A DNA stretch of 51,098 nucleotides from Planosporangium mesophilum. GTDB taxonomy: Bacteria; Actinomycetota; Actinomycetes; Mycobacteriales; Micromonosporaceae. Position 1 is the stretch's first letter. Each line of letters opens with the position of its first letter. The notes beneath the pieces are model-generated. The model had not been told where the DNA came from. It worked only from the letters and a program-made list of their open reading frames with translations, and made no database searches. Made by a program: the position numbers and the translations under genes. Below, piece by piece: positions 28,018 to 31,738 of this stretch. The stretch covers positions 1 through 51,098 of the forward strand of contig NZ_BOON01000013.1 of assembly GCF_016863255.1 (NCBI RefSeq). Reading direction: 5' to 3'.

Positions 28018-29436
28018 CTACCGCCGGCCCGCCGCCGTGACCGCCCGGTTGGACGAGCCGACGCCGTGCGAGAAGGAGACCGAGTCGGGGCCGCGCAGCG
28101 GCGCCGGCTGCCGTTCCAACTCGGGCAGGCAGTCTCTCAGGTCGCGCAGGAACTGGTCGGCCAGGTCGTGGGTGAACCCGTTGCGCACCACGACCCGTAG
28201 CACGGCGAGGTCGGCCCGGTTCTCCGGGAACGTGTACGCCGGGACCAGCCAGCCGCGCTGCCGAAGCGCCGCGGACACGTCGAACACCGAGTAGTTGCGC
28301 ACGTCGCCCGCGAGCGTGAACGCGACCACCGGTAGCTCGTCACCCCTGGTCAGCAACTGGAACGGCCCCAGCTCGCCGATGCTGATGGCCAGCGCGCGGG
28401 CCACCTCCCGCGAGTACTGCTGCACCCGGCGGTAGCCCTCGAACCCCAACCGCAGGAAGTTGTAGTACTGCGCGACCACCTGTGATCCGGGGCGGGAGAA
28501 GTTCAGCGTGAAGGTCGGCAGCTGGCCCCCGAGGTAGTTGACGTTCAGCATCAGGTCCGCCGGCAGCGCGTCGGGGTCGCGCCACACCACCCAGCCCACT
28601 CCGGGGTAGACCAGGCCGTACTTGTGCCCGGACGTGTTGATCGAGGCGATCCTGGGCAGCCGGAAGTCCCATACCAGTTCCGGGTCGCAGAACGGTGCGA
28701 TCATCCCGCCGCCCGCGGCGTCCACGTGGACCTGGATGTTCCAGCCGGTGCGCTCCTCGAGGTGGTCCAGCGCGGTGCAGATGTCGAGGACGGGCTCGAA
28801 GCTGCCGTCGAACGTCGAGCCGAGGACGGCGACGACGGCGATCGTGTTCTCGTCGCAGCGGGCCACCGCCTCGTCCGCCGACAGGTGGAACCGCTCGCCC
28901 TCCATCGGTACCTGTCGCGGCTCGACGTCCCAGTAGTTGGCGAACTTCTCCCAGCAGACCTGCACGTTGACGCCCATGACGATGTTGGGACGGTCGGCCG
29001 GCCGGCCGACCGCGCGCCGGGCGTGCTGCCAGCGGCGCTTGAGCGCGAGCCCGCCGAGCATGCACGCCTCGCTCGACCCGGTGGTCGAGGTGCCCAGGGC
29101 GTTGTCGACGTCGGGGGCGTGCCACAGGTCGGCGAGCATCCGTACGCAGCGCGTCTCCAGGTCGGCCGTGTGCGGGTACTCGTCCTTGTCGATGAGGTTC
29201 TTGTCCTTGCCCTCATCCATCAGACGGCCGGCCTGCGACTCCATCCAGGTGGTGACGAACGTGGCCAGGTTCAGCCGGGGGTTGCCGTCCAGCATCAGCT
29301 CGTCGTGCACGACCTGGTAGGCGACCTCCGGATCGAGTTCCCCGGCGGGGAACCGGTCCCTCGGGATGCGCACCGGCGCTCTGGTGAAGATCGGGTTGAC
29401 CGACAGGTCCGGGCGGCGGGTACGAGGCGCGGCCAT
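28018..29436 (-). CDS. gadB: Glutamate decarboxylase
   Basis: 472 residues, full length for the PLP-dependent GAD family, converting glutamate to GABA and CO2 with proton consumption. Conserved blocks are DEYPHTADLETRCV, GSSEACMLGGLALKRRW, HVDAAGGGMIAPF with the PLP-binding Asp, and SINTSGHKYGLVYPGVGWVV with the Schiff-base Lys. The N-terminal lead (DLSVNPIFTRAPV) fits actinobacterial GADs. No GABA antiporter gene is nearby. It lies 82 bp downstream of the RecQ-like gene on the same strand. Confidence 0.95.
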   Translation of the reverse strand: MAAPRTRRPDLSVNPIFTRAPVRIPRDRFPAGELDPEVAYQVVHDELMLDGNPRLNLATFVTTWMESQAGRLMDEGKDKNLIDKDEYPHTADLETRCVRMLADLWHAPDVDNALGTSTTGSSEACMLGGLALKRRWQHARRAVGRPADRPNIVMGVNVQVCWEKFANYWDVEPRQVPMEGERFHLSADEAVARCDENTIAVVAVLGSTFDGSFEPVLDICTALDHLEERTGWNIQVHVDAAGGGMIAPFCDPELVWDFRLPRIASINTSGHKYGLVYPGVGWVVWRDPDALPADLMLNVNYLGGQLPTFTLNFSRPGSQVVAQYYNFLRLGFEGYRRVQQYSREVARALAISIGELGPFQLLTRGDELPVVAFTLAGDVRNYSVFDVSAALRQRGWLVPAYTFPENRADLAVLRVVVRNGFTHDLADQFLRDLRDCLPELERQPAPLRGPDSVSFSHGVGSSNRAVTAAGRR

Positions 29437-29518: not shown

Positions 29519-30913
29519 TCAGGCCGGCGCGAGCACGTTCTCGGCCGACCGCCGGGGGGCCGGGATGACGCCGCGCCGGCAGTTGTCGCAGTGCCCGCAC
29601 GGGCGGGCCAGGCGTTCGCCGAAGTGCGCCAGCAGGTGCTGCCCGCGGCAGCCGTGCGCCTCGGCCAGCTGGAGCATCGCGTCGATGCGCGACTTCTGTA
29701 CGGTCTGGTGGCGGCCGATCTCCCGCAGCGCCAGCGACACCGCCTCGTCGGGTGGCGGCGCGTAAGGCGGCGTCGTCACCCGTCCGTTGACGAGGGTCAC
29801 GGCGGCGCCGACCCGCTCCAGCAGCGCGAGGTCCTGGGCCAGCCGGCGGGTACCGAGGCCGAGGTCGGCGGCGATGTCGGTGCGGCGGGCCGGACCGTCG
29901 CCCAGGGCGCGGATCACCCGGGCCAGTTCGGCGCGGTCGGGTGCGCCGCCGACGAAGAGGCGCTGCGGCGCCAGGTCCTCGGGCCGGTACAGCAGCAGCG
30001 CGCGGGCCGGCTCGCCGTCGCGGCCGGCCAGCCCGATCTCGTGCAGGTAGGCGTCGGGGGAGTCGGGCAGCCCGACGTGCACGACCCAACGGACGTCGGG
30101 CTTGTCGACGCCCGTGGTGAACGCGCTCGTGGCCACCATCACCGGGGCGTCGCCGGAGCGGAACGCCTCGGACCGGCGGGCGCGCTCACCGGCGGCCATC
30201 CCACCGTGGTACGCGGACGCCGCGACGCCCTCGCCGACGAGGCGCTCGGCCAGGTCCTCGGCGGCGCGCCGGGTCGGTACGTACGCGATGCCGGCCCCCT
30301 CGGCCGCGCGCAGCCGGGTGAGCAGTCGCCGCCACCGGTCCTCCTCGCCGGCGCAGCCGACCGCCTCCAGGTACAGGTTCGGCCGGTCCAGGCCGGCGAC
30401 GACCAGCTTCGGGTCGCGCAGCCGCAGGCGCGCCACGATGTCCTCGCGTACCGGCGGGGAGGCGGTCTCGGTCAGCGCGATGACCGGCGGGCTCCCCAGG
30501 TCGCGTACCAGCCGGCCTAGCGGGAGGTAGTCGGGGCGGAAGTCGTGCCCGAAGGCCGAAACGCAGTGGGCGAACTCCACGGCGACCAGCGACGGCCGTA
30601 GCGCGCGCAGCTCGGCCAGCCGTTCGGGCCGGCCCAACTGCTCGGGCGTGACGAACAGGAGCCGGGTGGGGCCGTCGGCGGGGGCAGCCCGGTCGGCCCG
30701 CGGCGAGATCACCACCGTCGGGCCGGGCAGCAGGGTCGCCGGCACCCGGTACCCGGCCGATCTGCGCGGGCCCGCCGGCATGACCACCAGCGCGTCGCGT
30801 CCGTTGAGCACGGCGCGCGCGGCGGCGAGCTGCTCACCGCAGAGTCCGCAGCCGAAGTGGCGGCGGGCGGCGCGGCGCAGGCGGATGCTGTTGGGGAGGA
30901 GGCTCACGGTCAT
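29519..30913 (-). CDS. RecQ-like protein with eroded ATPase motifs (probable pseudo-helicase)
   Basis: 464 residues, clearly a paralogue of RecQ at 1032-2663, but nearly every catalytic motif has changed. Walker A APTGGGKS is MPAGPRRS (45-52; Gly to Arg, Lys to Arg). DEAH is EFAH (113-116; the catalytic Glu is Phe). TATAS is TETAS. GMGID is TTGVD. QEIGRAGRDG is HEIGLAGRDG (291-300), losing one arginine finger. About 34 residues around motif Ia are deleted. The fold-defining parts and the four zinc cysteines (422, 439, 442, 445) remain, while the C-terminal module after the zinc site is missing. The frame is uninterrupted. It may bind DNA or partners without ATP-driven unwinding. Confidence 0.88.
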   Translation of the reverse strand: MTVSLLPNSIRLRRAARRHFGCGLCGEQLAAARAVLNGRDALVVMPAGPRRSAGYRVPATLLPGPTVVISPRADRAAPADGPTRLLFVTPEQLGRPERLAELRALRPSLVAVEFAHCVSAFGHDFRPDYLPLGRLVRDLGSPPVIALTETASPPVREDIVARLRLRDPKLVVAGLDRPNLYLEAVGCAGEEDRWRRLLTRLRAAEGAGIAYVPTRRAAEDLAERLVGEGVAASAYHGGMAAGERARRSEAFRSGDAPVMVATSAFTTGVDKPDVRWVVHVGLPDSPDAYLHEIGLAGRDGEPARALLLYRPEDLAPQRLFVGGAPDRAELARVIRALGDGPARRTDIAADLGLGTRRLAQDLALLERVGAAVTLVNGRVTTPPYAPPPDEAVSLALREIGRHQTVQKSRIDAMLQLAEAHGCRGQHLLAHFGERLARPCGHCDNCRRGVIPAPRRSAENVLAPA

Positions 30914-31016
30914 CGCGCACGCAGCGTACCGGACCCTCGTGGCCTATAACGACCAGAGTGGATGCCGTCCATCCACTGAACGGCCAGCTGTCCACAGTGG
31001 CCGACGTATCTGCTGC

Positions 31017-31141
31017 GCCACCTGCGCCGGGTGGCGAGGCACCCGGCTGCGCCACCTGCGCCGGGTGGCGAGGCACCCGGCTATGCCACCTGCGCCGGGT
31101 GGCGAGGCACCCGGCTATGCCACCAGCGCGGGGTGGCGAGG
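31017..31141. repeat. 34-bp tandem repeat array with internal hairpins
   Basis: Three full units (31017-31050, 31051-31084, 31085-31118) and a partial, diverged fourth (31119-31141). Each unit begins GCCACCTGCGCCGGGTGGCG. Inside each, GCCGGGTG and CACCCGGC make an 8-bp stem with a 6-nt loop, and GCCACC/GGTGGC forms a competing stem. The partial copy is the last codons of the kinase-like gene and copy 3 contains its stop, so the array looks like an amplification of that gene's 3' end. The rest of 30914-31016 shows no gene. Confidence 0.93.
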
Positions 31142-31738
31142 GTCGTCGACGCGCACGACCACGTCGGCCAACATCGGCGGGTCGACCTCGTCGGCGTAGC
31201 GCCGGTACGCCGGCAGTGTCCAGCGGTCGGCCTCCACGGTGCGGCGGGCCAGCGCGGCCGGCGACATCTCCAGGTGCACCACCAGGTCGAGCGGCAGGCC
31301 GGTACCGAGCAGCAGCGCGCCGCTGAGCAGCAGGACGCCGCTGTCCGGCACGGTCACGTACCCGGCCCGGGTCGCCCGGTCCCTGTCGGCGTCCCAGAGC
31401 GTCGGCAGGATCCGGCCGGTACCGGCGCTGCCGAGCGGGTCGAGCACCTCGCGCGTGAGGCCCCGCACGTCGAGCCAGTCCTCGTAGAAGGCGTCCGGGT
31501 CGGTACGGCCCCGCTCCAGGCGGAGCGAGGCCGGGCGCAGGAAGTCGTCGGCGCGTACCCGCTGGACCGGCCGGCCCCGTACGCGCAGCGGGGTGACGAG
31601 GGCGTCGGCGAGGTCGTGCGGTCCGGCCGGCGGTGGGCCGTCGACGCCGACCCGCAGCCACCGGCCGCTGGGTGCGCCGGCGACGATGTCGGCCAGTTCC
31701 TCGACGAGGATGCCGGGAGAGACGGGTCGGACGGGCAC
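31115..31738 (-). CDS. Uridine-kinase-like P-loop protein with degenerate Walker A
   Basis: 207 residues resembling proteins annotated as uridine kinase in actinobacteria: an N-terminal strand RWLRVGVDG, then VRADDFLRPASLRLERG, FYEDWLDVRGL, LPTLWDADRDRATRAGY and LLLSGALLLG as the Walker B-like region, and a C-terminal WTLPAYRRYADEVDP. The phosphate-binding loop reads GVDGPPPAGPHD (31-42) where GKT/S is expected, so ATP binding is doubtful. I recall that related actinobacterial proteins also have eroded loops, so this may be a family trait. It starts 4 bp after the oxidoreductase stop and is surely in its operon. Confidence 0.78.
   Translation of the reverse strand: MPVRPVSPGILVEELADIVAGAPSGRWLRVGVDGPPPAGPHDLADALVTPLRVRGRPVQRVRADDFLRPASLRLERGRTDPDAFYEDWLDVRGLTREVLDPLGSAGTGRILPTLWDADRDRATRAGYVTVPDSGVLLLSGALLLGTGLPLDLVVHLEMSPAALARRTVEADRWTLPAYRRYADEVDPPMLADVVVRVDDPRHPALVA

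Follow-up and report, generated by a model that had tools for sequence, protein, structure and literature searches.

A RecQ-family protein with replaced ATPase motifs in Planosporangium mesophilum: a candidate bacterial pseudohelicase

Introduction

Is a helicase-family protein whose ATPase motifs have been replaced a folded protein that is kept for something other than unwinding DNA, or is it an early stage in the decay of a gene? The question is raised by a RecQ-like open reading frame at positions 29519–30913, on the reverse strand of a 51,098-nucleotide stretch of DNA from the soil bacterium Planosporangium mesophilum, the whole of which is referred to here as the window. An initial annotation of the window saw in this frame a repurposed scaffold rather than decay. 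The same genome also encodes an intact RecQ, at 1032–2663 on the reverse strand, which we use for comparison.

Described pseudohelicases seem to be few. The PriA protein of Deinococcus radiodurans is a demonstrated example, as experiments in the part of the report that we draw on found neither ATPase activity nor unwinding and found binding to both DNA and DnaB (PMC4504706). For RECQL4, the part of the study used here reports that ATP-dependent helicase activity is dispensable for the physiological role (PMC6636780). The literature that we searched, partly by title and the start of the abstract, contained no natural bacterial RecQ pseudohelicase.

Results

Family and domain content

The frame encodes 464 amino acids followed by a stop codon and is unbroken, as the initial annotation had it, with a GC content of 0.81, 0.55 and 0.95 at the three codon positions. 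By BLASTP the protein is 55% identical to the intact RecQ over 475 alignment columns that include one large gap, and the alignment stays in a single frame from end to end despite its gaps. Pfam finds Helicase_C and RecQ_Zn_bind domains and no DEAD domain, compared with a DEAD domain at 1e-22 in the intact RecQ. The score against the NCBIfam family model TIGR00614 (recQ_fam) is 252.6 bits, which passes the cut-off of 219.8, while the stricter recQ equivalog model TIGR01389 (cut-off 640.2) accepts neither the 464-residue protein (295.8) nor the intact RecQ (417.1). The protein belongs to the RecQ helicase family by descent, with two RecA-like domains followed by a zinc-binding domain.

Of the residues that would mark RecQ as an active enzyme, only the glutamine of motif 0 and the second arginine of motif VI remain, the others being changed (K51R, D113E, E114F, R295L and R25C). 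The protein combines helicase descent with missing catalytic residues, two features of a pseudohelicase, which would in addition have been maintained by selection since the loss and would have a non-catalytic role such as binding DNA or a partner.

Motif losses and retained sites

We compared the motifs with those of 80 relatives that make up the rest of an 81-row alignment. Motif 0, the adenine clamp (residues 20–28; 30830–30856, reverse strand as for all features of the gene), has lost its aromatic residue (W22C) and its arginine (R25C), conserved in 80/80 and 78/80 relatives, as well as one residue by deletion, and keeps Q28. In D. radiodurans RecQ the adenine is bound by Arg26, Tyr22 and Gln29, the first two of which sandwich it, according to the part of the paper used here (PMC4163472). 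The matching of these positions to R25, W22 and Q28 is our own. In motif I, or Walker A (residues 46–53; 30755–30778), PTGGGKSA has become PAGPRRSA, so that the P-loop lysine and the preceding glycine, present in all 80 relatives, are gone and the serine is still there. About 34 residues are missing in frame after motif Ia, in two gaps of the alignment (30662–30703). Motif II (residues 113–116; 30566–30577) reads EFAH for DEAH, retaining the histidine and replacing an aspartate and a glutamate found in 80/80 relatives, and the tryptophan of the aromatic-rich loop, equally conserved, is changed by W121F (30551–30553).

Further along, motif III (residues 148–152; 30458–30472) is TETAS for TATAS, with the lost alanine present in every relative, and motif V (residues 266–271; 30101–30118) is TTGVDK for GMGIDK, the Gly-Met pair again being conserved in 80/80. 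Motif VI (residues 291–298; 30020–30043) has changed from QEIGRAGR to HEIGLAGR; its glutamine and both arginines are conserved in all 80, and Q291H and R295L leave only the second arginine. The winged-helix-like region (residues 326–367; 29813–29938) is helical in the predicted model and gives a weak Pfam match to DprA_WH (324–366, E 0.017) that falls below the cut-off. All four cysteines of the RecQ zinc site, C422 to C445 (29579–29650), are kept, as they are in 80/80 relatives. The C-terminal tail beyond the zinc site is absent, and its signature, H..WG.G.V, is found in 79 of the 81 proteins, the exceptions being this one and a RecQ copy from another genome (L028 of G197). The tail of that copy stops early after the zinc site, possibly through a frameshift or assembly error. 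The corresponding tail of the intact RecQ (residues 496–533) gives a weak match to the PcrA/UvrD tudor domain (E 0.0044) and one to DUF3553, both below cut-off.

All of the replacements named in the initial annotation are present in the alignment, as are its gap of about 34 residues, which lies after motif Ia, and its four zinc cysteines; W22C, R25C, D113E, W121F, Q291H and the lost tail come in addition. The segment at motif Ia and the aromatic-loop tryptophan are presumably parts that touch DNA, and these are altered too. The net charge of the protein lies inside the spread of its relatives. The aligned residues show a scaffold that is largely kept.

An active helicase with unusual motifs could be imagined from the retained motif 0 glutamine, P-loop serine, DEAH histidine and second motif VI arginine, but changes affect the P-loop lysine and glycine, the DEAH aspartate and glutamate, the first motif VI arginine and the adenine clamp alike. 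In E. coli PriA the Walker A lysine-to-arginine change by itself abolishes ATPase and helicase activity, as stated in the part of the PriA report cited (PMC4504706). We regard activity as very improbable, and the residues make a strong case that the protein would no longer use ATP. An error of sequencing or assembly, or a chimaera, is more improbable still: the genome is a draft of 103 contigs, but the substitutions are many and scattered, the open frame and coding bias are kept, and the gene lies inside a single contig of 51,098 bases.

Relatives and origin

The initial annotation expected the replacements to recur in orthologues, and here it was not borne out, as RRS, EFAH and GLAGR occur in none of the 129 relatives in which the motifs were read. 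The catalytic lysine, aspartate and glutamate and both motif VI arginines are intact in all 129 (80/80 nearer and 49/49 farther). Of a set of 80 loci, 31 joined the 81-row alignment (30 once a duplicate had been removed) and the other 49 were read for the five catalytic residues; other helicases of the same genome scoring below 200 bits were excluded. Likewise, no relative sharing the replacements emerged from similarity searches that covered 4 genomes of the genus, 354 of the family, 397 drawn from the order and 394 drawn from the class, within limits of E <= 1e-60, 1e-80, 1e-148 and 1e-145 respectively; the order and class draws overlap in genomes, and a fast-evolving orthologue below these limits would escape. 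Among the matches listed none is better than one that is 63% identical and catalytically intact. At least 32 of the 354 family genomes, including the present one, have two matches at E <= 1e-80 among those listed, and the 30 matches from 15 two-copy genomes, after duplicate removal in the 81-row set, have intact catalytic residues.

In the tree the protein stands alone on a branch of 0.85–0.86 (0.61 under a simpler model), which leaves the RecQ clade of Micromonosporaceae close to its base. A recent duplication of the local RecQ was considered and is rejected by AU tests, with p values of 1.9e-11 for a grouping with the window's own RecQ (L009) and 6e-5 for one with the RecQ clade of the genus. 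Placements as sister to L014, a RecQ of genome G005 (p 0.23), or to the second copies of Dactylosporangium (p 0.19) are not rejected by the same test.

The gene lies between an upstream gene at 31115–31738 (reverse strand), which we take to be kinase-like, and a downstream one at 28018–29436 (reverse strand), which we take to encode a glutamate-decarboxylase-like protein. The former has a homologue in 4/4 genus genomes and the latter a match at E <= 1e-50 in 2/4. In genomes G001 and G002 another gene, presumably DsbA-like (L160 and L159), stands beside the kinase-like gene in the place of the RecQ-like one, and in G002 it is a gene other than the RecQ-like one that lies between the kinase-like and decarboxylase-like genes; the next frame in G003 is presumably LytR-like. 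The stretches of G001, G002 and G003 that were searched contain no RecQ remnant. Since these genus neighbours carry the flanking gene and, in those stretches, no trace of RecQ, the protein, which is known from one genome, either was acquired in this lineage or disappeared from other members of the genus, and gene content at the site beside the kinase-like gene seems to vary.

A tandem array of 3.8 copies of a 34-bp unit (95% matches) lies at 31012–31141, between the kinase-like gene and the RecQ-like frame, and reaches into the 3′ end of the kinase-like gene. Just upstream of the RecQ-like frame, at 30958–30976, there is a perfect palindrome, GTGGATG-N5-CATCCAC, which occurs nowhere else in the genome. 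We do not claim it as an operator, as by a rough estimate so short a site near a gene can arise by chance. A promoter scan for the frame found none.

Distribution of the changes

Early decay is the main alternative to a retained protein. It would have a redundant second RecQ lose its ATPase and now drift neutrally, with no stop or frameshift yet, and it is favoured by the presence of an intact RecQ in the same genome, by the occurrence of the protein in one genome and by the missing tail. The distribution of the changes bears on it. Among 67 relatives there are 132 invariant columns (counted without L019, which has an odd N-terminus, and 12 distant rows), and the protein departs from 27 of them, 7 of which are deleted. 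When each sequence is left out in turn, the highest count after this one is 2, so the change is beyond chance. In the 125 invariant columns that are not deleted, 12 of 34 are changed in the motifs and 8 of 91 outside them (Fisher p = 7.7e-4); the motifs are those usually recognised, chosen when the alignment had already been viewed. This agrees with the initial annotation in placing the loss chiefly in catalysis. Three of the eight changes outside the motifs (S77A, S78P and E80D) adjoin the deletion, and 7 of 48 near-invariant columns outside the motifs are also changed, so the scaffold is not untouched.

Neutral simulations were started from the L014 gene and stopped at 20 changed invariant columns; two GC settings were used, with 300 runs for each. 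They gave a mean of 5.2–5.5 motif changes, and 12 or more were reached in 0/300 runs at each setting, which argues against decay. So do the codons that were hit more than once: 4 of the 20 changed invariant codons are at least two bases from any synonymous codon, which 9 and 5 of 300 neutral runs achieved, and one is three bases away (2 and 2 of 300). The gaps that keep the frame and the GC3 of 0.95 point in the same direction. The open frame itself was dropped as proof of selection, since neutral runs were often free of stops (12, 16, 38 and 72 of 150 at GC targets of 0.50, 0.70, 0.85 and 0.95), so that the lack of stops is weak evidence and is what decay would also allow.

Selection on the branch

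Rates were estimated with a purpose-written branch codon model, applied to 22 of the 81 rows. The branch leading to the protein has a dN/dS of 0.27 (about 0.18–0.40) compared with 0.104 elsewhere (LR 17.5). Fixing it at 0.15, 0.20 or 0.40 costs 7.4, 1.9 or 3.7 in 2dlnL, and a value of 1.0 is rejected at 31.5, in line with the ratio below 1 that the initial annotation had anticipated. The branch is long, with about 2 neutral changes per codon, and given the unsure placement in the tree the values are rough. Control branches gave 0.23 for L014 (LR 7.8), 0.13 for L031, 0.045 for L016 and 0.048 for L145. L014, the nearest relative, is catalytically intact and yet fast-evolving, so faster evolution by itself is not special.

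The first RecA domain has a dN/dS of 0.17 compared with 0.07, with 1.0 rejected, and the second has 0.32 compared with 0.11, with 0.5 not rejected. With 14 taxa, the winged helix and zinc domain gave 0.32 compared with 0.17 (LR 1.75), where 1.0 is rejected at 6.3. Over the same 14 taxa the 40 motif codons rise from 0.024 to 0.21, short of 5% significance (LR 3.2), and the sites outside the motifs from 0.125 to 0.27 (LR 10.3). The scaffold is therefore relaxed too, and this is as decay would have it. The branch value also averages the periods that preceded and followed the loss, and about 18% of the branch at a dN/dS of 1 would likewise yield 0.27, which again fits decay. The argument against such a neutral portion is the clustering of the loss and not the average dN/dS.

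Predicted fold

An AlphaFold2 model built from a 47-row alignment, in which the in-group rows are 52–64% identical, has a pLDDT of 88.2 and a pTM of 0.87, and its weak point is residues 77–80 at the deletion (pLDDT <50). The best Foldseek matches are RecQ cores, with 4tmu at rank 1 (E 1.9e-30, TM 0.67 by query) and 1oyw at rank 9 (E 3.7e-28). The structure is thus predicted to be that of RecQ, as the initial annotation supposed. An alignment of intact relatives biases a model towards an intact look, so the support for a RecQ fold is modest.

Discussion

Because the loss is clustered (p 7.7e-4 and no neutral run) and the branch dN/dS is 0.27, we favour a constrained pseudohelicase over decay, and find it rather probable that the protein is an old RecQ-family paralogue that has lost ATP binding and hydrolysis and would have been kept as a folded protein. 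Its occurrence in one genome, the raised dN/dS of the scaffold and the other genes found at the site in sister species count against this. The proposal of a repurposed scaffold therefore stands in part: the pattern of loss and the constraint on the branch are in its favour, and the single genome, the relaxed scaffold and the changes in parts that presumably touch DNA are not. As the protein is seen in one genome only our claim is modest, and early gene decay is a serious possibility that we nevertheless think somewhat doubtful. That the motif Ia segment and the tail are missing fits decay as well as it fits design.

A retained pseudohelicase of this kind would neither hydrolyse ATP nor unwind DNA. 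It might act passively, most likely through predicted DNA binding by the second RecA domain, the winged-helix-like region and the zinc domain, and its putative role could be to mark or shield the substrates of RecQ-type enzymes, or to compete for them. To name a partner would be a guess, and this includes the intact RecQ, which the initial annotation suggested it could modulate. The fuller account, in which an old second RecQ lineage turned into an ATP-independent DNA-binding protein that kept the second RecA domain along with the winged helix and the zinc domain but shed the ATP parts, the segment at motif Ia and a tudor-like tail, is one that we regard as evenly balanced.

The RecQ helicases of Micromonosporaceae, such as L014 and the intact RecQ of the window, share the predicted fold and the zinc site with the protein, and differ from it in having their ATPase motifs, the motif Ia segment and the C-terminal tail. 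RECQL4, as described in the part of the study cited above, is similar in being a RecQ-family protein with a role that reportedly does not need helicase activity, but it is a RecQ of vertebrates, has motifs of its own and does not represent a natural loss in a bacterium. The PriA of D. radiodurans, in the portion of its report used here, is alike in being a bacterial repair helicase with the Walker A lysine changed to arginine, a degraded Walker B and a kept scaffold. It differs in that it is PriA and not RecQ, in that its loss recurs in its phylum, and in that its lack of ATPase and unwinding activity and its binding to DNA and DnaB were demonstrated by experiment. If the reading as a pseudohelicase is true, the protein would be a natural RecQ equivalent of the Deinococcus PriA and would offer a way to test RecQ function without ATP.
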